A DNA stretch of 64,000 nucleotides from Apiospora phragmitis. Lineage: Eukaryota; Ascomycota; Sordariomycetes; Amphisphaeriales; Apiosporaceae. Each line of letters starts with the position of its first letter. The stretch's first letter is position 1. This document shows, in pieces, positions 1-42,840 of this stretch. The position numbers and the translations under genes were made by a program. The stretch spans positions 434,001 to 498,000 of the forward strand of contig JAQQWL010000010.1 of the NCBI GenBank assembly GCA_038363925.1, given 5' to 3'. The notes beneath the pieces were generated by a model. It worked only from the letters and a program-made list of their open reading frames with translations, made no database searches and was not told the DNA's origin.

Positions 1-3000
1 CAAGGCGGCTAAGGGGCGCTACCGGCGCCGTGGGTGACACCGCCAAGGGTGCCACAGACACAGTCGGCAGTGCGACGGGCACCAAGGACGCTACGGACAA
101 GGTGGGTGATACCGTCAAGGGCACCACCGACACCGCGGGCGATGCTGCCGAGGGCGCGACTGGCGCTGTTGGCGAGACCACTGAGGGCGTCACGGACACT
201 GCCCAGGACGCGACCAAGCCCGTCACCGACACCGTAGATGGTGCCACTGGTGGCGCCACCGGCAAGGTGGGCGAGACCATCGACGAGGCGGGTGACAAGG
301 TCGGCGAGACGGCTGATGATGCCGGCGAAACGGCCGAGGGTGTCACAGACGAGGTCGACGAGAAGGCGGGCGAGACTGCCGAGGGCGCCAAGGGCAAGGT
401 TGACGAGGCCGGTGATGAGGTTGAAGTACCCGAGGATGCTGAAGACGTCAAGGACAAGGCCCAAGGCGCCGTTGACGAGGCCGGCGAGGGCGTCGAGGTG
501 CCTGAGGGTGCTGAGGACGTTAAGGAGGGCGCCGGAGGTGCTGTCGACGAGGCTGGTGAAGCTGTCGAGGGCGCCAAGGACGAGGCCGGTGAGGCTGTCG
601 AGGGTGCCGAAGACCAAGCTGAGGAGCTTGGCGAGAAGGCACCCATCGAGATCCCTGAGTTTGCCCCCTCCGTCGCGGCCAGGGTTGTCGACATGTTCCA
701 AGGCCCCTTCACTGTTGCCGATGATGGTCAAGTCAAGGACCAGAACGGCAACATCCTTGGAAAGCTGTCCAAGGACCAGGATCTCCAGGACCTGATCGGC
801 AAGGAGATCAAGGCCATCAACGAGAAAGGCGAGCTCCTCGGCGACGATGACGAGGTCCTCGGCCAGGTCGACCTGGTGCCCGAGGGCACCATCGTCGACC
901 GCATCCGGGAAGAGGTTCCCGAGGCCGGCGAGCGCCTCGACGCGCTCGAAGAGGAGGCCGAGCGCAAGCTGCCCAACATCTCCATCCTCGAAGGCTTGTC
1001 CATTAACAAGATGGGCAATGTCGTCGACGAGAAGGGCAACCCGCTGGGCCGCGTCAAGTCGGGCGACCTCAAGAAGATGATCGGCAAGCAGCCCGATGCC
1101 GAGGGTAAGGTCTGGGACTCGCGTGGCAACGTGATCGGCGAGGTTGAGGTTTTGCCCGATGCCGTCGAGAACGTGTCGGGCCCCTTCGAGGGACTTCCCC
1201 GACGCCACTGTCGACAAGAACGGCAAGGTCATCTTCGACGGGCGCCAGGTCGGTGTGGTTGTCGGCGACGACTTCCAGAACCTCATCGGCAAGAAGGTCG
1301 ATGCTGATGGTGATATTGTCGACAAGAACGGCAACGTTATCGGCAAGGCCGAGCGCAAGGAGGAGGAAGAGCCTGAGGCTGAGCCCGAGCCCGAGCCAGA
1401 GCAGATTGACTACTCTTCCCTCAAGGATAAGAAGGTCAACAAGTTCGGCAACGTCGTCGATGACAAGGGCGCCGTGTGGGGCCACGTTGTCCAGGGTATC
1501 CTGAAGCACCTCGTTGGTAAGAAGATCGGCGAGGACGGTCAGATCTTCAACGACGCCGGAAAGGTGATCGGCAAGGCCGAGCCCCTTCCCGACGAGGAGC
1601 GCGAGGACGCCAAGGAGGACGGTCCTTTCGCTGACTTCCCGACGCCGTCGTCGGCGACAAGGGTGCTATCATGTTCCAGGGTCAGCGCATCGGTACCCTC
1701 GTTGATGGTGACGAGAAGAAGCTCAAGGGCAAGACCGTTGATGCTGATGGTGACATCCTGGATAAGAACGGCAACCAGCTCGGCCGCGCCGAGCGCTGGG
1801 AGGAGCCTGAGGCCGAGCCCGAGCCAGAAGTCGACTACTCGGCCCTCGCTGGCAAGCGCATCAACAAGGCTGGCAACGCTGTCGATAGCCACGGCGACAT
1901 CTACGGTCGTGTTATTGAGGGAGACCTCAAGCGCCTCATCGGGAAGATGTGCGACAAGACTGGCGCCATCCGCAATGAGGGCGGTGATGTCATCGGCCGC
2001 GCCGAGCTCATCCCCGAGGCTGAGCGTGACGGCATGAAGGAAGGTCCCTTCACCGACCTGCCCGGCTGCACCGTTAACAAGGAGGGTCACGTCGTGACAC
2101 CTGGTGGTGACATCGTCGGTCGCCTTACTTCAGGTGACCCGAAGACTCTCTTCGGTCGTGCGGTTGATGATGACGGCGATATCCTCGACAAGAACGGCAA
2201 CCAGCTTGGTCACGCCGAGCGCTGGACCCCCCGAGGAGGTCCAGAAGGACGTCAGCCCCATGGCCGGCCGCAAGGTCAACAAGGAGGGCAACGTCGTCGA
2301 CGAGAACGGCGACCTCATCGGCAAGCTGACCTCGGGCGACCTGAGCAAGTGCGCGGCAAGAAGATTGACGACGACGGCGACGTCGTCGACCAGAAGGGCA
2401 GCATCCTGGGCCACGTCTCCCTGCTCGAGGACATCCCCGAGCCGGAGCCGGAGCCCGAGACGGAGGAGGAGTCCGAGGAGGACAAGCAGAAGCGCCTCCG
2501 CATGGAGCAGGACCGCGAGATCGCCAAGCGCATCTGCATCTGCATCGAGCACTCGCTCGACAAGATCCGGCCCATCTGCAAGATGATCACGGAGAACATC
2601 GACCGGGTCGAGCGGCAGCCCGAAGACGAGCGCAACGAGGAGGAGCTGGTCAAGACGGTCAAGCCCCTCATCGAGGAGGGCGGCAAGATTCTGACCGAGG
2701 CCAACGGCGTCATCCGCGGTTTGGACCCTGACGGCCGCATCGCCGGCAACGCCAAGGGCCGCGCCGCCGCCCACGAGGCCAGCCCCGAGGAGTACCAGCT
2801 CGCGGAGCTACTCAAGGAGCTGACGGGCACCGTCACCGAGACCATCGAGAACGCCAAGCGCAAGCTGGAGGATATGCAGTACGCCAAGAAGGAGCTCAAC
2901 CCGCTCTGGGGCCTCCTGGCCGAGCCGCTGTTCCAGATCATCGCCGCCGTCGGCCTGCTGCTGTCCGGCGTGTTGGGGCTCGTCGGCAAGCTGCTCAACG

Positions 3001-3231
3001 GGCTAGGCCTCGGCGGGTTGGTGAACAACCTGCTGGGCGGCCTGGGTCTCAATAAGGTTCTGGATGGTCTTGGTCTGGGTGGTGTTGTTGGGGCTGTCAC
3101 GGGACAGGACAAGAACAAGAAGGGCGGCAAGAAGTAAGTTTTTCTCTCTCAATCCATTCATCCATCTTCATTGTTCTACACAATCATACTAACAGCATTC
3201 TAGGGGTGGTGGCTTCCTCGGCATCTTGTAA
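1..3231 (+). CDS. LEA-like / DUF3659 repeat protein, 5' end cut by window edge
   Basis: The reading frame is open at base 1, so the start codon lies outside the window. The first ~210 visible residues are low-complexity Ala/Gly/Glu/Asp/Lys repeats (GDTAKGATDTVG type), like LEA-type hydrophilic stress proteins. From about base 660 there is a series of ~70-residue modules with the pattern V-x-D-x-x-GN-x-x-G-x-V...L-x-GK-x-x-D-x-x-G, characteristic of fungal DUF3659. The C-terminal ~220 residues form a charged helical region followed by a Gly/Leu-rich hydrophobic tail, as in the DUF6987-type ends of such proteins. The last intron is 3134-3203, with a branch-site-like ACTAAC, and the final exon encodes GGGFLGIL and TAA at 3229-3231. 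Single-base frame changes lie at G13-16, G1190-1192, C1638-1640, C2227-2232 and G2349; the repeat modules run on in the new frame each time, so I read them as base-call errors. Function is unknown; a desiccation or stress-protectant role is inference. Confidence 0.8.
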
Positions 3232-10158: not shown

Positions 10159-11014
10159 TCAGTCATCAAAAATACCACGCCCGCCGTAACTTCCCCCGAC
10201 GTGCACCCTGGACACTCCGCGGGCGTCCACTGTGTCAGCGGAGTTGGAAGTCTTTGTCCGCAAAACCCGCCAAGCCCAAGCCATTCTTTGCGAATGCAAA
10301 CTCGTTGCCGACCCGTACGCGCGCCTGGTCTTGGGTGCCGACTTGACCTGCGTGGTTCTTCCCGGCGATGACCGCGGCTTTGCGCTCCGCTGCTTCGGCA
10401 AGGATGCTGTCCACGTTCGCGGCGGCGTCCTGTACAGTTTCGAGTGCTACCTCGTCGTTGACTTCCTCGATCTCGACCTGCACCAACTGGCGCCGGGGTG
10501 CCTCGAGGTCATCCACAAAGCCCGCGATCTGCTCAATCAACTTGTCGAACTGTTTCCCGTCGTACAGCGCCCACGCTACCTTCTTCACGAGGCTCGTTTG
10601 CTTCTGTCTCCGAAGCACGATTTCACCGAGACGTTGATGGAGCTGTCGCGCGACAGCTCGCATGTCTTCGTCTCGCCATATCGCTAGGTCGTCTGGCTTC
10701 GCGCCTAGCTCGTATCGCTGCGACTTCTTGCGGATCGATTGGAACAGGAGGTCAAGTTCTTCGAGAATGAATTGGGCTTGTCGCGTGGGAGCATCGGCCG
10801 GTAATGTCGTAGCGAAACGAGGATCTTCATGGATGGCGACCACTTCGCCCCAACGGCTCAGTCGTGTTTGAGCAATGTCGAGCTTCAGCCGGCAGCGCTC
10901 GAAATCTTGGCCAAAGTGGCGGCCCAACTGTACGTATTCAAAGCAATCCACGCAATCAGTGAAGAGAGCGGCCACGCTCAAAGCGCCCGCGACGGTACCG
11001 AATAGCTCGGCCAT
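10159..11014 (-). CDS. het-S: HET-S orthologue: HeLo pore-forming domain plus HET-s-type prion domain, about 284 aa
   Basis: The start is the ATG whose complement is 11012-11014; upstream codons in frame lack ATG. The first ~225 residues match the Podospora anserina HET-s/HET-S HeLo domain (Pfam PF14479 type) almost block by block, including CVDCFEYVQLGR, ARLSRWGE-like and RRQKQTSL..K.AWALYDGK blocks. The residue at position 33 is His and at 23 Asp. The tail carries two copies of the HET-s amyloid motif: R1 at 10265-10327 (QARVRVGNEF) and R2 at 10162-10212 (SRVHVGGSYGG). A one-base frame change near T10252-10254 separates R1 from R2; without it the raw frame stops at 10235. The corrected length, about 284 aa, is close to the 289 aa of HET-S. 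In Podospora the HeLo domain is a latent membrane-permeabilising module triggered when the tail is templated into a beta-solenoid. The divergent NLR at 11211 is the expected activator. Confidence 0.93.
10162..10212 (-). other. HET-s-related amyloid motif, repeat R2
   Basis: Reads SRVHVGGSYGGRGIFDD and is followed at once by TGA (10159-10161). It is the counterpart of the second HET-s repeat, which also ends the Podospora protein. It is one base out of frame with R1 in the raw sequence. Confidence 0.87.
10265..10327 (-). other. HET-s-related amyloid motif, repeat R1
   Basis: In the het-S frame this encodes QARVRVGNEFAFA and flanking residues. It corresponds to R1 of the HET-s prion-forming domain, whose core is R-V-hydrophobic-L-G-N. 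It lies after the HeLo domain, as in Podospora. Confidence 0.85.
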
Positions 11015-11210
11015 TTGATTCCATATGCTGGTAGGTAGGGAAGCCGAATACAACCATCTAAGTAAGCATGCCTACGGGGTATGAGAGGGTGCCAGTCAAG
11101 TGGAATCTCATTGGTCCCTCGAACGACGTACGGCTGAGCCAAGCCTTACCCAAACATCCCCACACATCGTGCCTTCGACAAAGTGTCAATCAAGCGACAA
11201 CAACCTGAAG
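11015..11210. promoter_or_regulatory. Bidirectional promoter between het-S and the NLR gene
   Basis: Only ~196 bases separate the two divergent start codons, so both upstream control regions must overlap here. I could not pick out a convincing TATA box or factor site. Shared control of the two genes is inferred from arrangement. Confidence 0.6.
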
Positions 11211-13754
11211 ATGACGGAAGATCATACTACAACAGTCCGTTCGGAGAACTCTGTGGGTGTTCTCCGAGCTGGCGTGCCACGCGAGAGTCCAGATCGGAGA
11301 CAGCCACAGCCACAGCATCATCAATAACTACCAGCATTGGAATCCAAAGCTTGCAGACTCTCACCTCGCCGAAACCGACAATGAGCGATTGCGCATCGCG
11401 TTTCTTCGACGACTCCATACCTCACCGTACGAGGACCGTAAGAACAGAAATCCGAAGCGAGTAGACGGCACCTGCGAATGGTTTACCACCCACAATCGCT
11501 TCCAGAATTGGCAGGCAGAGGCCTCGGCGATGCTATGGGTTTCTGCGGATCCGGGTTGCGGCAAGTCGGTCCTCGCGAAATACCTGGTAGACGATGTCAT
11601 TGCTTCGAACACAACCAGAACGACATGCTACTTCTTCTTTAAGGATGACTTTGACGACCAGAAAACGCTTGAAAGTGCTCTTTGCTGTATACTACACCAA
11701 CTCTTCATCCAGAAGCCCGATCTGCTTCTGGACAAGTTTCTAGACGGTTTTAGGGAAGAAGGTGGACAGCTCTTCTCATCGTTTGATGGGCTTTGGCGCA
11801 CTTTGATCGAGTCGGTCGGTCAGCACAAACATGGCGAAATCATCTGCATTCTCGATGCCTTGGACGAATGCAGGGAGCATAAACGTCTAGCCGCGGCTTT
11901 GACGAAGCTCTACAACAAAGGCAAGGGGATTTCTACATTGAATTTCCTCGTAACTAGCCGCCCATACCTCAATATCGGACGAGAGTTCCAGGACCTTAAA
12001 GACTCTCAGCCGACTATTCACCTAAGAGGAGAAAACCCGGAAGAGGTTGACAGAATTGCCCAGGAGATCATCCTCGTCATTGAACGACGGATCGAGGAAC
12101 TAGGCAAAAGGCACCAGCTTCCCATGGACGAAATGCAGATCTTGCATGACGAGATCACTGCAATCAACCACCGAACATATCTATGGGTCCACCTTATCTT
12201 TGCTGCCTTGGAAGAGGCCGTCTTTCTTTCCAAAGCTGAATTACGTGCCAAGATCCACGAGCTGCCTCACACAGTCGAGGAAGCCTACGATGGTATACTT
12301 CAGAGGAGTTCCGACCCTGAAAAGGCTCGAAAGATCCTACGCATCGTTGTTGCGGCTGAAAGGCCATTGCGGCTCACGGAGATGGCTGCTGCATTGGCTT
12401 TTAGAGGGAGTCATCGGTGCCATCAAGATCTTGAACAAGACGTTGCGTTACCAGATCGCTTGCAGATTGCTATCCGAGAAATATGTGGCCTTTTCGTTGT
12501 TGTTAAGGCTTCGGAAATTTTTCTCATCCATCAGACAGCCAGGGAATTCCTGGTCAGGATCCCACTTATACAGCCAGAGATTAGTTCCACCCTGAAATGG
12601 CAATACTCCTCGATCCAGAAGAGTCGCACCTTTTGCTTTCAGAAATATGCGTAAAGTATTTATCCCTTATCGACTTTCAAAGACTAGCCAGAGTGGAAAG
12701 TCTCGATGTGTTTCATTTCTGCCTTTTGGAGTACGCTGCAAGTAACTGGGCGTATCATTATCGACAAGCGCACAGCAAGCCTGGCGCGAACCTTGAGCGA
12801 CTTGTCTTACAGCTTTGCAATGTCCAGCTCCCCGCTTGTCAGTCCTGGCTATTAGTGTACGGGGAAAGGCGAATGGGTGATCCAGGATTTATGCGCGAAC
12901 TGCCGACATCCTTACTAATCGCATCATACTTTGGCTTGAACAAGCTGGTTGGTTCAGTCCTCCGAGAAGGCAAATCAAGGCTTGATGCGAGAGGAGCCCG
13001 TAGTCAGCGAACCGCTCTATCGTGGGCCAGCGAGAAAGGGTACGTCTCAACAGTCGAGTTGCTCCTAGGTCAAGTGCATACAATCCATGTTTTTTTCAGA
13101 GACTGGTCATCATCTCTTTCTAGTATTGTCAATCGGAGAGATCAACATGGTAGGACGCCACTTTTACATGCTGCAGCGAACGGTCATCTAAAAATAGTCC
13201 AGCTCCTGCTCAGCAAGAGTGCAAAGGTTGATATTCGAGACGAGAATGGACTGACACCTCTAACCTGGGCGACCTACCACGGTTACCGTGATATTGTGGC
13301 ACTCCTACTGGAAAACGGTGCTCGACAAAAGTCGGGAAGGAGTCATTTGGAGACAAGGGATCGAAAAGGCCGGACTCCTCTGATGAACGCTGCTAGAGAT
13401 GGGAATGAAGCTGTTGTGAAGATGCTGCTGGATGGAGGGGCCAAGGTTGACCCGCGCGATACAAATGGCAGGAGGGCTTTACAGCACGCTGCAATTGGAG
13501 GGAACGACACTATTGTTAAGCTGCTTCTGGACCGAGGGGACGATATTCATATCAAAGACAAATTTGATTATGTTATTGCTTTGATGCGGGCTTCGGGGAA
13601 AGGCTATACCGCCGTTGTGGAATTGCTTCTAGACCGAGCAGCCGACATTGATATCCGAACTAAGGATCGCTGGGATGCTCATAAGTTGGCTCTAATGGGT
13701 AACCATGACGATGTGGCGAAGTTGCTGCTAGAGCGAGGCTCTATGGAACACTGA
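11211..13754 (+). CDS. NLR-type receptor: N-terminal amyloid motif, NACHT NTPase, ankyrin repeats, about 847 aa
   Basis: The N-terminus carries an amyloid motif (HARVQIGDSHSH, 11278-11313). The NACHT domain shows a P-loop (ADPGCGKSVLAKY, ~11545), a Walker B block (ICILDALDEC, ~11845) and a TSRP sensor-like block (~11955), then the usual winged-helix region with HQTAREFL (~12530). About seven ankyrin-type repeats fill 12960-13750 (GRTPLLHAAANGHLKIVQLLL type). The only ATG that fits is 11211; the frame then changes at G11255-11257, because the amyloid/NACHT frame itself has no ATG after an in-frame stop at 11212. A second one-base change lies at C12608-12609, between NACHT and ankyrin parts. 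In the HET-S/NWD2 system of Podospora an NLR with a HET-s-like N-terminal motif seeds HET-S. Here the ligand-sensing part is ankyrin instead of WD40. Start placement is the least certain part. Confidence 0.88.
11278..11313 (+). other. HET-s-related amyloid motif R0 at NLR N-terminus
   Basis: Encodes HARVQIGDSHSH. It shares the A-R-V-Q/R-hydrophobic-G-N/D core with R1 of the adjacent HET-S protein. This is the position of the triggering motif in HET-S-controlling NLRs. Confidence 0.75.
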
Positions 13755-14147: not shown

Positions 14148-15603
14148 ATGCCTGTCACCAGCTTTGATTACAACGAGAAGTACCGATATCAGAATGGGTT
14201 CGACTCATATTTTGAGTAAGTAGGGTCATTTGAACACCCGTGAGATCAAATCGCTCATTGCCGCTGTCCAGGTCCGAGTCGGTAAAAGGTGCTCTGCCCA
14301 TCGGCCAGAACTCCCCGCAGAAGCCGCCCCATGGCCTGTACGCCGAGAAGCTGTCCGGCACCGCCTTCACAGCACCCCGGCACGAAAACAAGCAGTCATG
14401 GCTCTACCGCATCCTCCCCTCCTGTGCGCACCCTCCGTTTCAGGAGGACACGGCGGGCCCGTTCACTTCGGATAAGCCCTACAGCGCCTCCAAGCTGCAG
14501 TACATCCCCAATCAATTGCGGTGGGACCCCTTCGACCACGACGAGCAGACGGACTTCGTATCCGGCCTGAGGCTCGTCGCTGGCGCAGGGGATCCGACGC
14601 TCAAGCAAGGTATTGGCATGTATATCTACGCTGCTGGAAAGTCCATGGATGAGCGGACTGCATTCTACTCGGCGGACGGCGACCTGTTGATTGTGGCCCA
14701 AGATGGCGTGCTGGACATCCGCACCGAGTTCGGCTGGCTACTCGTGCGGCCCATGGAAATATGCGTTATTCCTCGAGGAATCAAGTACCAAGTCCATCTT
14801 CCGAGCGGGCCGGCTCGGGGATACGCCCTCGAACTCTACCAGGGCCACTTCACCCTTCCAGAACTAGGCCCCATCGGCTCCAACTGCCTAGCCAACGTGC
14901 GCGACTTCCAGGCGCCCGTCGCGTGCTTCAGCGAAGACAGCGGGGCCACCGCGGCCGACGGCCCCAATACCTACACCATCACGGCCAAATTCAACAACAC
15001 GCTGTTCCGGACGCAGCAGGCGCACACGCCCTTCGACGTGGTGGCGTGGCACGGCAACTACTACCCCTACAAGTACGACCTGGGCCGGTTCAACACGATC
15101 GGGTCCGTCTCGTACGACCACCCGGACCCGTCCATCTTCACGGTGCTGACGGCGCAGTCGGACCACGCGGGCACCGCCGTCGCCGACTTCGTCATCTTCC
15201 CGCCGCGCTGGATGGTGGCCGACGCCACATTCCGCCCGCCCTGGTACCACCGCAACACCATGTCCGAGTTCATGGGCCTGATCGCGGGCGTCTACGACGC
15301 GAAAAAGGGCGGCAAGGGCGGCTTCATGCCGGGCGGCGCCAGTCTGCACAACGTCATGAGCGGCCACGGGCCCGACGCCGAGAGCTACGAGGGCGCGCGC
15401 AACGCGGAGCTGAAGCCGGTGCATTTGGGAAGGGCAGCTGCGCCTTCATGTTCGAGAGCTGTCTCATGGTCGGTGTCACCGAGTGGGGACTGAAGACGTG
15501 CCAGAAGGTGCAGGAGGCCTACAATGATCACAGCTGGGCCGGGGTCAAGGTGCACTGGAAGAAGCCGGAGGGTGCGAGCACGGACGGACATCTCCTTAAG
15601 TGA
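14148..15603 (+). CDS. hmgA: Homogentisate 1,2-dioxygenase, about 466 aa
   Basis: Cleaves the ring of homogentisate to maleylacetoacetate in phenylalanine/tyrosine breakdown. Exon 1 (14148-14215) encodes [20 protein letters not shown], and a 56-nt intron (14216-14271) follows. Signature blocks are SEFxxGALPxGQNSPQ-like, LRWDPFD, and the iron-site region [14 protein letters not shown], where His and the Glu six residues later match the known Fe(II) ligands; the third ligand is His of [10 protein letters not shown]. The C-terminal block [14 protein letters not shown] lies one base out of frame; the change is at G15427-15429, within the stretch leading to GSCAFMFES. With it the coding length is divisible by three and the size is normal for fungal enzymes. 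Other genes of the tyrosine pathway are not next to it; the FAD monooxygenase downstream is convergent and belongs to a different enzyme class. Confidence 0.95.
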
Positions 15604-15754: not shown

Positions 15755-17055
15755 TCATTCTACCAGCTTGAGTTCGGGATATTCGGGAAGTGGTATGCCG
15801 CCCTTGTCCGCCGGCATCAGACTCAGCGCCAATTTATCAATCCGGAACGTGGTGATGAACCGCCCCAGCGAATGCAGGAACCAGATCCCCCAGTCCGTCT
15901 GCGGCGTCACGACGGTCGGCGCCCCCGGCGGCAGGCTCTGGACCTCGTCGACGAACGGCCGCAGCACCCGGTCGTACCCATCCAGCGCCGCCGCCACGTC
16001 GTCGCGGTGCCGCGCCAGCTCGCCCGCCAGCACGTACGCGCCGACCAGCGACGCCGTCGTCCCGCACCCGGAGACGGGACTGGGACAGTAGCCCGCATCG
16101 CCCAGCAGCGCGACGCGGCCCCGCGACCACGAGTCCAGCTTCACCTGCCCGGCCTCGTGCGCGTAAAAGTCCTCAGTCTTCTCCAGACCATCGAACACGC
16201 GCTCGCGGCACCAGGCGTCCGTGTCCGCGTACAGCTCGCGCCAGATTTGCTTCTGCTCGTCGACGCTCTTGTGAGTATAGCCCGTCGCGTCCCGCAGCAA
16301 AGGCGCTTGGGCGGGCTCGTTGCAAATCAGGTAGCACTGTGTCTCGGGCCGGCCGTTGGCGCGGAAGGCGATCATGCGCCGACCGGACAGGTGGTGGATG
16401 ATGGCGACGTCGCTGTCCTCCTTGTCGTCGCGCGGGATCGTGAAGTAGGCCGCGTAGCTGTGCAGCGTGCGGAACGCGGCCCTCCCTTGCTCGTCGCCCC
16501 AGGCCTGGCGCCGCGTGCGCGAGCCTTGGCCGTCGGCGCCGACGACTAGGTCGAAGTGGCGTTGGCGGCCGTCGCTGAACGTAACGTCCACGCCGCCGTC
16601 GCCGTCTTCCTTTTGCGATATATTGTCTACCGACACCCCGAACTCGTACGTCACACCACTGCCTCCCTGCTTCTTCGCATCCTCCGACGCCTCCAAGCTC
16701 GCGTCGTACAGCACCCGCACGAGGTCGCCGCGCATGATCTCGTACTCGCTCGTGAAGCCCTGCTGCCCCTTGCCGGTATCGTTGACGCCGAACTGGAACT
16801 TTTGGTTCCCGTGCTTGTCGACAAAGGCCATCCCCTTCTCGTGCACGACGACGTTGCGCACGGCGTCCAGCAGGCCCATCTTGCGCACGACGGGGATGCC
16901 CTGGCGCGCACGTCGATCTGTTGGCCGCCCGTGCGCAGGGCCGCGCAGCGCTCCACCACGGTGAGGCGGAACGCCGCCGGGTCCGCGCGCAGGAGCAGCG
17001 TCGCGAGAGCGGGACCGCAGACGCCGGCGCCGACAATGAGGATGTCTAGGGGCAT
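15755..17055 (-). CDS. FAD-dependent monooxygenase (PHBH/TetX-like), about 433 aa
   Basis: Starts at the ATG complementary to 17053-17055, giving MPLDILIVGAGVCGPALA, a dinucleotide-binding GxGxxG fold. A conserved middle block VVGADGQGSRTR (DG motif) and the second FAD block VALLGDAGYCPSPVSGCG (GD motif) place it in the PF01494 single-component hydroxylase family, closest in style to TetX-like fungal enzymes. A one-base loss at C16905 (GG to G on the coding strand) puts the first ~52 residues in a different raw frame; after GGQQIDVR the next frame runs on with QGIPVVRKMGLLDAV. No introns are needed and the corrected length is divisible by three. It converges with hmgA, with only ~150 bases between the stops. 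The substrate is unknown; such enzymes often hydroxylate aromatic or polyketide compounds. Confidence 0.88.
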
Positions 17056-17859
17056 GGTGGGTGGTTGGGGACGGACGGGCAAGAAAGGGCTTGGTCTGGT
17101 TTGGTATATGAGAGAAGATCAAGGGAATGAGTACGATTGGGCAGAGGGAATCTTCTTGAGGATTTGGCTAAGTAGGACAGACAGTCTTCTCGTCATACCT
17201 CTTTACACAGAAATGGATTAGTTGTTGTTTGGTATCCCTTGGAGAACTTGTTTCACGGAACACGTGTGTGGCGCTGGTCATTTCATTTAGAGGGAATCGA
17301 GGCAAGGTAGAAGATACTCAGGTTTATGTAATGGCTATATACTTCTCTGCATTCTCTGAGCAAGTGTGGACTTTCAAATGACCGAGCGATACAGTAATTA
17401 TCGTAGCGGTTTCGGTACCGCCCGAATTCCATACGGAGTTCGGTGCCGATGACTTGGATTGCAGTTCGAGTCAGGGTGGGTAGCCGCCGTAGTCTACGAC
17501 GTCACCACTGAGAGTTGACGAGAATGAGGAGGCGATTGGCTTGGGTGGGCGTTTTAGCCTGGGGCTAGAGACAGATAGGGGTTGGCGCTGCTGCGCCTAG
17601 CCGGATCGGCCCTTACGAACACGGGGCAGCTGGAGGCTGGGGCTCGTCACTCGTCACTCGCGACTCGGCCTTTGGAGCTCAATTCGGCAATTTCGACGAC
17701 TTCATCTCTTGCTTCGGCCGATCATGGATACGCGCTCTCGGGGCTCGGTTATTAGTCAAGTCCGATCTTTGTCTGCTAGCCATTTCATGTCGAATTGTGT
17801 TACGAATGAGGAACGCGACTGGCAGCAGTGTCAAATCAGTGCCTATTAGACTTTCCACC
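17056..17859. other. Intergenic region
   Basis: Promoter side of the monooxygenase gene, followed by sequence with no supported gene. Short frames opposite the HET remnant are shadows. Confidence 0.5.
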
Positions 17860-38974: not shown

Positions 38975-40587
38975 TCATGGGAGTCGATTGGTGTACAAGT
39001 CTGCATACCGCCCCTTGGCTAACCTCGTGTCCACCAGGCTGAGCAGACCGAGGCGGGGAGTCTTCGAAATCATGTCCGCCGACATGTACTCATAGATGGT
39101 GAACACCGATCTCAAGAAGGGCATACCCAGAAGGCTGTCGCCGAGCTTGGGCTTTTCCCTACTTCCAATTCCACCACGGCACCTGGGCGCAGTTAATACG
39201 ACGTGGAGATGATTCGCCAGAGCGGGAAGACTTACATCCTTGTTCCATCCTCAGCGTAATAGCTCGAATTACTCGCCAGCATATCCAGGGGGTCAACGAG
39301 ATACCAGTTCCCGTTGACCTTCAGCTCAAGCGATTGAGGAATGGAGCATTCAAAGTAGGCCACGTCGCCAGTGAACCCCTGGCTAGTACTCTGCCGAACT
39401 TCCGTCTTGCCCTCAAACTTCTTGACAACTGCATTGAAGTCTGCTGTTGGCAGGTAGATATGAGATGCCCCGGAGTCGATCACGGACACATGTTTCGCAT
39501 CCGGGCGACGGCGGCCCGGACTGACCGGAAACTCGACGCCATTCATCCGGAGGCCGTCCAGACTGACAGACCATGCTGCCGTAGCAAGAGTGTCCGTGTT
39601 ATCGGGCGACCTTTTGCGACGTGTTAGCATGTGCTAGTTGAAGGAATTCAAGGAGATAGGATATCTGTAGCGAGGGGTACCCACGAAGAGAATTGAACGA
39701 CATCGCTGTATTTGGTTGGAATCATCATGAACTCTTCCTCAATTTCTCCGATAGAAAAGGCCCCAGCCATCGCGTTCGGGTCGCCCAGGCGAGGAAAGCG
39801 CAATGAAAAAAGAGGCTTGGCCAGCTTCCCTTGGGTAATCAACGTGTCGATGAACGACAGCTTCTGAAATTGGAGCCATTGGGAAGAAGCTGTACGCATC
39901 CCGAGCCCTAGGATGCCTGCGAAAGATCCGTTCTGGAACGAGCCCGGCATGGCCTCGTCGATAAGCGCTATGCAACGTGTGAACTTGACGTCCAAAGGCT
40001 CACTCATATCAGATCTATACATACCTGCCGTAACATTGCCAACTTCCAGGCCGGAGATGTTGGCTCTCAAAGTGGCGTGTTGCCCAGTTGCACGACCAAC
40101 ACCAAGGTCTGCCTCAAACTTCTGGTCATGGTGTATGATGGTGTTTTCCTGAGTTGAGTACTTTAGCAACCGCCCAGGAGGCTTCTATCGACTCAATCGA
40201 AATACCTTGGTCTTGAATGTCGCATCCAGCGCGTAGCATCCACTCTTCGGGTTCGCCGTATCGCATTGGCCAGAAGCGATAAACGAATCGCCCGTGGACG
40301 TGTCTATGTTCAGCAGCAATGACTGTCCGTCCAACTCGACGCTCACCTGCATTCATATGGTCAGCACATGGCGCAACTGTTGGAAGAAGTGATCGGGAAC
40401 CCACAACGTGGTATGCATCGTCGGTGCTGTTTGGCGGGATATGCACCAATAGGTTTGCTGCATATACTACTTCATGATCAGGGACGAGGTTTTCCACTTG
40501 GCTGAGGGTACTCAGAGTCCAAAACAAAGCGAGCGCGAAGGAGATATAAAGGGTCGCAGTGCCGAACCAGTTCCCAGCCTGCTGCAT
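38975..40587 (-). CDS. Pepsin-like (A1) aspartic protease homologue with altered active-site motifs, 456 aa
   Basis: Start at the ATG complementary to 40585-40587. Exons (minus): 40405-40587, 40206-40346, 39685-40148, 39236-39610, 38975-39182; four GT...AG introns and 457 codons with no frame correction. A hydrophobic segment at residues ~10-30 is a signal peptide or anchor. The bilobed A1 layout is clear: AYHVVSVELDGQSLLLNID, FAGILGLGMR (usual G-x-x-GLG), VSVIDSGASHIYLP, and FLRSVFTIYEY near the end. The first catalytic block, normally D-T-G-S, reads DTSTGDSF; the second, normally D-T/S-G-T/S, reads DSGAS. The Asp of both is kept, but the Gly after the first is replaced by Ser. Whether it is active, altered or inactive cannot be told. 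Secretion to vacuole, wall or medium is expected. Confidence 0.85.
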
Positions 40588-41127
40588 TGTCTCTACGGGC
40601 GATGATGGTGCTGGCAGTCTTCAACAACAAATGACCAGATCTGAGGTGAGAATGCGTACAACGCGACGACTCGATCGGTTTCAAGATCAGGTGGATCCTG
40701 CTGATTGCCCCCTTCCACCCTTCTGGGGTATAAAGGGCCCAGCCGCCTGGCCTGGGGCTTGGCTAGCCCAAATCTGTGTACATAAGCATAAGAATCGTTG
40801 CGTCAAATGCACGCGTGCATAACAATAATCCAATTGTTATCTAGGTAGATCATACACCTCTCTCATTGTTAATGTTGAGTCTTGACAGATATACAGAAGG
40901 TAACGAAATCGGCTTCCTCGCTAGCGGGCCGAGAAATTCGTCTCCGCTTGGACCATTTTCTATTTTGGGAAAGGTGCACAGTGACGCTTACCCGCTGACC
41001 AGATGCCTGGTTTTGTAGGCCCTAGGTAATTAATTACGAGGACAGTTAACCCTGATGACACGGGGTCGCGAACTAGCTCCACGCTGCTTTCTATATAACC
41101 TTATAAAGGTATTACTTTAAAAGTATA
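40588..41127. other. Intergenic region up to the transposon-island boundary
   Basis: Promoter side of the protease gene. Base composition turns sharply AT-rich at about 41085-41130, where the first transposon end lies. Confidence 0.6.
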
Positions 41128-42840
41128 ACGTACCTCATAAGCGAGCTGTGCATATAAGCGAGCTGCGCACTTTTAATTAACTTTTTTATAATTAACTTTA
41201 TATTAACTTTTCTTTTTTAATAACTATAGAATTAAAAAATAAAGAAAAAAGATTTAATTTAACGTTTTAAGCGTTTTAAAATAACTTAAAATTAAGTGTA
41301 TAAAAAGCTATAGCGATATATTATATCTTAAAGTTAACGTTATGTAGCTAATAACGCGGAATTCGATCACGATTTAAAATCTTTAAAAATTTTAAAAGCT
41401 TTTTAATTTTAAAAAAGAATTAATTATTTAATATATTATTAATTTAAATACACGATCGTTTTTTCCCCGGTTAAATAATATAAAAGATATAGCGAATTAA
41501 TTATTTAATTTATATAACGCGAATTGCGTCGGTGTTAACTAAGCCTTTAACTTTATACGATAATAACTAGACCTCCGGATACGTTTTAATCGAAAAATCG
41601 ATTATTAAAGAATCCTTTATAAAAATCTTAACATATATCGCGTATAATTTATTCTCGTACAGAATATAATTAATAAATATAAAATATAAAAAGAGGATAT
41701 ATATAATTTTAACGAGACCGGGTTTTTTATAAACTAAATCTCGTTTAAAATAATCGTAACCACTTTTAATTAACGCGGAAGGCTTAAAGTAATATAATAA
41801 AAGAACCGGGAATAAATTATAATTATTTAAGGCGTCGATTTAAACGGTTACGCTATCCCTCCGTATATTATCTTTACCGGGAAAACACACCTCTCTTTTT
41901 AATATAAAAACAACCTATTACTAAAGGACTAAGTAATTATAATTACTAAAAATAGCTAGACTACGAATAAAAAAAGCGAGGACTAGATTTAATACTTTAA
42001 TTAATATATTAAGTCTCGTACGAAAAATTATTATCGCCTCTTAGTCTTAGACGGCTATAAAAGTCACTACTCGATAACTTTTAAGCTTTATTACGAAAAA
42101 AACTCGATTATTATATATTATATACCTTTTTATTTATCGTATAAGCTCTAGCCTCTTAATATCGGCTGTTTTTATACATTAAAAAAGGCGTACGAGAAAG
42201 AAATTAAAGGTTTTATATAAGCGTATATTATTTTCATCTCTAAGGAGGACTTTTTATTAACGTTTTTAAAAGCGTTCTAGGCGATTTTTACCGTTTCGAA
42301 TATATAAAGAAGCTTTTAAAAAATAAGACTCCTCTCGTATAATCCGGAATATATTATTTTATAATTAAATATAAAACTATATATTTTAATACCTCCGGAG
42401 ACGTTTTCTAGCTTATTTATCCTTTAAGAATTAAAAACTTTAAATAATTTAATTAAAGCTTAATTTTAAACCGAATACGTTCGAAACTATATCGTATAAT
42501 ATTAAAATAATTTTTTAATTATTATTTTAATTAGTTTTAACTAGATTATAAAGGTTATAACGTAAATTATATACCGAGTTACTTTTTTAAAAAGTAAGGT
42601 AACCGTATTATGAAAAAGCGAATAAAATGCTTAGCCGGCGCCGCCGTACGAAAAAGAAACGGCTATAAGATAAAAGATCACTTTATATATAAGTTAAAAC
42701 AGACTTGCAATTTTAAAAAAAATATTAATAAATAGTTGTAAAACGAATCGCGTTAAAAGAATAATTATATAAAAACGTTTAAAACACGTTTATAACGCTA
42801 TAAAATCTCACGGGGAGCCCGGGTATAATACGCGTAAACT

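Follow-up and report, generated by a model that had tools for sequence, protein, structure and literature searches.

The locus described here, in a 64,000-nucleotide stretch of the Apiospora phragmitis genome (the window), belongs, as read at the DNA level, to the known HET-S/NLR amyloid-signalling pairs and is of the ankyrin type. A HET-S homologue on the minus strand and a NACHT-ankyrin NLR that carries R0 on the plus strand are divergent neighbours (Table 1), and the divergent orientation proposed for the two genes in an earlier note on this DNA is borne out, with 196 bp between the start codons. The DNA holds the features by which the HRAM1 class is recognized: a HeLo effector, R1 and R2 at its C-terminal end and a neighbouring NLR with R0. 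The earlier note went further and described a working HET-S/NWD2-type pair with an ankyrin NLR; the identity of the pair stands at the DNA level and its parts are intact in relatives, but the word 'working' is not borne out by the assembled sequence, in which three frame changes interrupt the pair. On our analysis, the divergent genes probably encode a HeLo protein with two repeats and an ankyrin-NACHT receptor with a matching repeat, the receptor being likely to seed the HeLo amyloid fold and the frame changes being likely assembly errors.

Table 1. Positions in the window of the features of the HET-S/NLR pair.
Feature	Position	Strand	Remarks
HET-S-like gene, open frame of 259 aa (HeLo + R1)	10235..11014	-	start codon at 11014
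HeLo domain (PF14479)	10439..10999	-	E 1.7e-50; residues 25-211 of the stop-to-stop frame
R1 amyloid repeat, 21 residues, HeLo frame	10295..10357	-	best-scoring 21-mer of the window
R2 amyloid repeat, 21 residues, frame differs from R1	10183..10245	-	second-ranked 21-mer of the window
Intergenic stretch, 196 bp	11015..11210	.	separates the two divergent start codons
R0 first half, 9 residues, frame of the ATG at 11211	11247..11273	+	21.5 bits
R0 second half, 11 residues, NACHT frame	11278..11310	+	36.1 bits
NPHP3_N / NACHT-type NTPase	11467..11961	+	PF24883, E 4.5e-42
DUF7069 + GPIID_WHD winged-helix region	12055..12558	+	E 1.2e-8 and 8.2e-7
Ankyrin-repeat sensor half, frame other than NACHT	12585..13754	+	Ank_2, E 1.4e-46; Ank, E 1.3e-41

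Among the closest known arrangements is that of HET-S/NWD2 (HRAM1) in Podospora anserina, in which the genes are likewise divergent neighbours (PMC3321046) and encode a HeLo protein with R1-R2 and a NACHT NLR whose N-terminus bears one R0. The A. phragmitis pair differs in having an ankyrin sensor instead of a WD40 sensor and in the frames broken in the assembly. A Pfam scan found no WD40 match in the NLR; with ankyrin repeats present and WD40 unmatched, the receptor is therefore termed NWD2-like rather than NWD2 proper (NACHT-WD40). The suggestion in the earlier note that ligand recognition may differ with ankyrin in place of WD40 is sound, yet already published: certain NWD2 homologues are described as having C-terminal ankyrin repeats, with the remark that their ligands may differ (Daskalov et al., PMC4344463). 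In kind, the present locus showed no difference from the ankyrin homologues of that account, and it adds one more species to them. The same source gives 55 genomes with HET-S homologues and an adjacent NLR in 46 cases. STAND genes are reported to lie beside HET-S homologues in divergent or other orientations, and WD, ANK, TPR or HEAT repeats to occur across all motif types (PMC3321046). Five motif classes (HRAM1-5) are distinguished in PMC4518210, where 98 of 155 HeLo-related genes adjoin an NLR and Table 1 counts one HRAM1 protein for Apiospora montagnei; this was the only paper found in a literature search for het-S in Apiospora. The sesA/sesB/het-eN system of Nectria haematococca (sigma motif) similarly links a NACHT-ankyrin NLR to effectors through an amyloid-type motif (PMC3321046), but with another motif family and other effectors.

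The amyloid repeats carry much of this assignment. R1 and R2 were scored with a 21-position profile made from relatives only (114 R1 and 110 R2 sequences, identical ones counted once). Its source was the 120 listed HET-S matches, which gave gap-free alignments for 115 R1 and 111 R2. The R1 of the window was left out, as was the R2 of the Apiospora hydei HET-S model P0004, which goes out of frame in the same linker. Over the six frames of the 64 kb window R1 scored 45.6 bits, R2 45.2 bits and the third-ranked 21-mer -7.0 bits, placing both repeats more than 50 bits above every other 21-mer. R1 aligns with positions 1-29 of PF11558 at 27.7 bits (cut-off 32.2) and R2 with positions 39-65 at 28.6 bits, also below the cut-off; R2 further resembles the solved HET-s amyloid chain 2kj3 (E 2.8e-4). 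A second profile, built from the R0 motifs of 34 relatives, located R0 in two pieces. The runner-up to the first half in the window reached 9.9 bits and the maxima of six base shuffles at most 14.2; for the second half the runner-up outside R1/R2 reached 8.1 bits and the shuffle maxima at most 14.0. The halves lie in the expected order and in two frames; the gap between them is 4 bases, against the 3 bases of a single residue that would be expected. The motif HARVQIGD that the earlier note had placed at the N-terminus of the NACHT gene is thus present in its core, but R0 is split over two frames and no ATG precedes the core in the NACHT frame. That note had made its reading depend on R0 lying within the NLR frame; as assembled, one R0 half lies in the NACHT frame and the other does not.

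When read against the consensus of 34 R0, 115 R1 and 110 R2 sequences, with positions numbered as in PMC3321046, the HRAM1 residue pattern (N1, hydrophobic residues at 14 and 16, G17) is found in R1, R2 and the R0 halves. The R0 profile scores R2 (23.0) above R1 (10.9), which agrees with the account of HRAM1 in PMC4518210. No excess likeness of R0 to the R1/R2 of its own pair was seen in the six of eight pairs that were usable (the window's own pair left out): R0 shared on average 7.2 and 7.5 of 21 residues with its own R1 and R2, and 7.1 and 7.9 with those of other pairs. It is extremely improbable that the likeness of R0, R1 and R2 is due to chance or is a by-product of composition. Taken piece by piece, the Pfam HET-s_218-289 scores do lie under the curated cut-off, as would suit such a reading; against it stand the margin by which R1 and R2 clear all other 21-mers, the R0 halves that clear all six shuffles and lie so close together in the right order, and the R0 threshold used for relatives (a score above 10 within the first 100 residues), which none of 2400 shuffled N-termini reached (best 2.8).

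The effector is a HET-S-like protein by both sequence and predicted fold. The HMM check of the two proteins suggested by the earlier note gave matches to HeLo (PF14479), NPHP3_N/NACHT and Ank, the HET-s motif pieces (PF11558) remaining below the cut-off. In a phmmer comparison three solved P. anserina HeLo sequences were matched with E values of 4.3e-77 (2wvn) to 3.8e-70. When the 259 residues of the window's protein were modelled together with 45 of the 120 listed relatives, the predicted structure (mean pLDDT 75.6) matched 2wvq, 2wvo and 2wvn with target TM-scores of 0.92-0.93, r.m.s.d. values of 1.2-1.9 and 50-55% identity; beyond these three, the fold search with this structure returned no match reaching E 0.001. 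Nearly all of residues 228-259 are predicted with low confidence, as expected if they belong to a disordered amyloid domain. Alignment gaps indicate that six HeLo residues are missing without a frame change; the other 119 listed relatives keep them except P0106, the sole other sequence among the 120 to lack them and itself a 170-residue fragment. The gap sits between two predicted helices, and since the predicted fold still matches the solved structures, the loss does not upset it. The domain carries H33, as in the Podospora allele HET-S, together with D23, as in HET-s, a combination shared by 49 of the 120 listed sequences (the window's own counted). These residues settle nothing as an allele test, because HET-s becomes HET-S-like only with D23A plus P33H (PMC3531502). 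The same source describes how HeLo exposes a transmembrane segment roughly 34 residues long. The two C-terminal repeats ascribed to this protein in the earlier note are both encoded downstream of HeLo, but R2 is not in the frame of the protein as assembled, the HeLo-R1 frame stopping earlier.

The Pfam content of the NLR consists of NPHP3_N, a sub-threshold NACHT match (PF05729 at 21.7 bits, under its cut-off of 26.7), DUF7069, a winged-helix region and ankyrin repeats. By eye, the NTPase holds a Walker A stretch (GCGKS) and another that is Walker B-like (ILDALDEC). The best NLR match is the deposited A. phragmitis model P0121 (97% identity, 99% coverage), which seems to join the frames through different exons and in which no R0 match was found. 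Frame errors can thus hide such pairs from automated annotation. The ankyrin DNA contains no tandem repeats, and the two ankyrin units found by pattern in P0121 are 55% identical; counting by this pattern gives a minimum only, and the number of repeats was not taken from it.

Neither gene forms a single open frame in the assembly. The HeLo-R1 frame ends ahead of R2, which is open in another frame only, and R0, NACHT and ankyrin likewise do not share one frame. The NACHT and ankyrin frames differ and overlap at 12585-12654. The ankyrin repeats are read in the same frame as the ATG at 11211, which means that the two frame changes in the NLR cancel out. An intron at the R1/R2 frame change was considered and rejected: the repeats are separated by 49 bases in which no GT-AG of normal fungal intron length was seen by eye, and relatives read through this position. 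As a control for indels, 18 joins between consecutive matched stretches were inspected in chaperonin and HSP70 genes of the same genome. Eleven of these contain 52-123 extra bases and are intron-sized; the other seven are frame changes with a net gain or loss of five bases or fewer, too small for an intron. The matched chaperone coding sequence amounts to about 28 kb (summed by hand), which gives roughly one indel per 4 kb, and the three frame changes in about 3.4 kb at the locus lie somewhat above this rate. The homogentisate dioxygenase gene beside the locus is also frame-broken, HgmA_C positions 2-117 being in one frame and positions 115-152 in another. Because similar frame changes occur in the chaperone genes and in this neighbour, assembly indels are the likely cause of those in the pair.

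The alternative is that this strain carries the pair in decayed form, with real frame changes and a HET-S protein that can no longer be seeded. Three frame changes and a six-residue loss within one locus would be consistent with decay, as would the lone R2-like relic that lies elsewhere in the genome away from any HeLo match; the out-of-frame R2 of A. hydei P0004 could also mean real loss. However, both flanks of each frame change still match relatives closely, and changes of the same type are common in the chaperone genes and present in the next gene. Decay is accordingly disfavoured and we regard it as unlikely; the three frame changes are likely to be assembly errors rather than signs of decay.

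Intact counterparts of the parts exist in related fungi: those of HET-S in Apiospora marii and A. arundinis (P0002 and P0003) and those of the NLR in A. arundinis, Xylaria and Seiridium (P0123, P0124, P0126 and P0130). The NLR search found 3077 proteins; among the best 120, which were listed, R0 was called in 37 and not in the other 83. Carriers are concentrated at the top, with 31 among the best 45 relatives and 6 among the other 75 listed. Their scores run from 46.5 down to 10.1, and the next protein scores 2.0. The 14 proteins without R0 among the best 45 include P0121, some that look truncated at the start and some with other N-termini. A search for NLRs by R0 irrespective of the sensor gave 2 proteins among 3 candidates, too few for shares of WD40 and ankyrin. 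Among the listed matches there are eight HET-S/NLR pairs, this locus included, in each of which the two members are on contigs of the same length; on megabase contigs this does not prove adjacency. In Xylaria longipes the HET-S protein (P0052) and the NLR (P0124) have the consecutive locus tags CHU98_g6258 and CHU98_g6259 and the architectures HeLo-R1-R2 and R0-NACHT-ANK, like the pair described here. They differ from it in having intact frames and in ankyrin units that are partly near-identical (best pair 97%), compared with 55% in P0121. In the Seiridium and Xylaria receptors P0126, P0130 and P0124, the best ankyrin-unit pairs within one receptor are 91-97% identical, as in shuffling arrays. 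Since Apiospora, Seiridium, Xylaria and other relatives combine the HET-S core with an ankyrin receptor, they offer a natural test of whether the type of sensor matters to the amyloid trigger.

Among five A. arundinis NLRs, identity is 84-95% in the region preceding the ankyrin repeats and 70-86% in the repeats themselves, the ankyrin value being the lower in all ten comparisons; they are assumed to represent one locus in different strains, and alignment of repeats lowers the ankyrin figure. The A. arundinis HET-S match represents a 90% cluster of four sequences. Tentatively, and with the balance slightly against it, we suggest that in Apiospora and its relatives the trigger and the pore-former are nearly fixed and strains of a single species rapidly come to differ in the ankyrin sensor. 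In that case a HET-S immune receptor would read antigens through a variable ankyrin array, as it does through the WD40 array in Podospora.

A mechanism for the pair can be proposed by taking over the order of steps from Podospora NWD2/HET-S by analogy. The ankyrin half would sense a ligand, upon which the NACHT domain would oligomerize and the clustered R0 motifs would adopt a one-rung β-solenoid. This solenoid would template R1-R2 of the HeLo protein, and the HeLo N-terminal helix would then be released into the membrane, leading to cell death. It is conceivable, if rather doubtful, that the living fungus has an intact pair whose role is self/non-self recognition between strains and not defence against other organisms. 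The Podospora HET-S effector does participate in heterokaryon incompatibility (PMC3531502), and the greater divergence of the A. arundinis ankyrin half fits either use. On the other hand, incompatibility in Podospora depends on the het-s/het-S allele pair, with nwd2 only indirectly involved according to PMC12881547.

The pair appears to be single in the genome. Searches of 52.67 Mb in 19 contigs with HeLo, PF11558 and the NACHT half found no second pair. A second copy with R1-R2 was not found either, the only PF11558 matches being R1 and R2 of this locus and one weak relic on another contig. No close NLR paralogue was found among the 30 listed NACHT-half matches, the best of which besides the receptor itself is 33% identical. 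Eleven HeLo matches were obtained, some being pieces of one gene; another HeLo protein of the genome (L002) has a long, different tail without a PF11558 match. The weak relic is a lone R2-like stretch at L011 1501-1611 (C6:563576-563686) with a tail to about position 1641, which scores 22.5 bits, below the cut-off. By eye its last residues are in another frame, and a HeLo match was not found nearby; it may be what is left of a second HET-S-type gene.

The window as a whole gave no Rfam match at gathering scores, and no match in a sigma-70 promoter scan, a model unsuited to a fungus. A protein with DUF3659 repeats and DUF6987 is encoded at 1635-3134. The homogentisate 1,2-dioxygenase gene occupies 14234-15603, its C-terminal end in another frame, and beside it lies a FAD-binding monooxygenase-type frame at 15755-17167 on the minus strand. 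Between 41000 and 64000 the GC content is 18-31%, compared with 50-63% elsewhere in the window and 39% in the 40001-42000 block, and only one frame lies beyond 40620 when non-overlapping frames of 130 residues or more are counted. This AT-rich block is perhaps due to repeat-induced point mutation.
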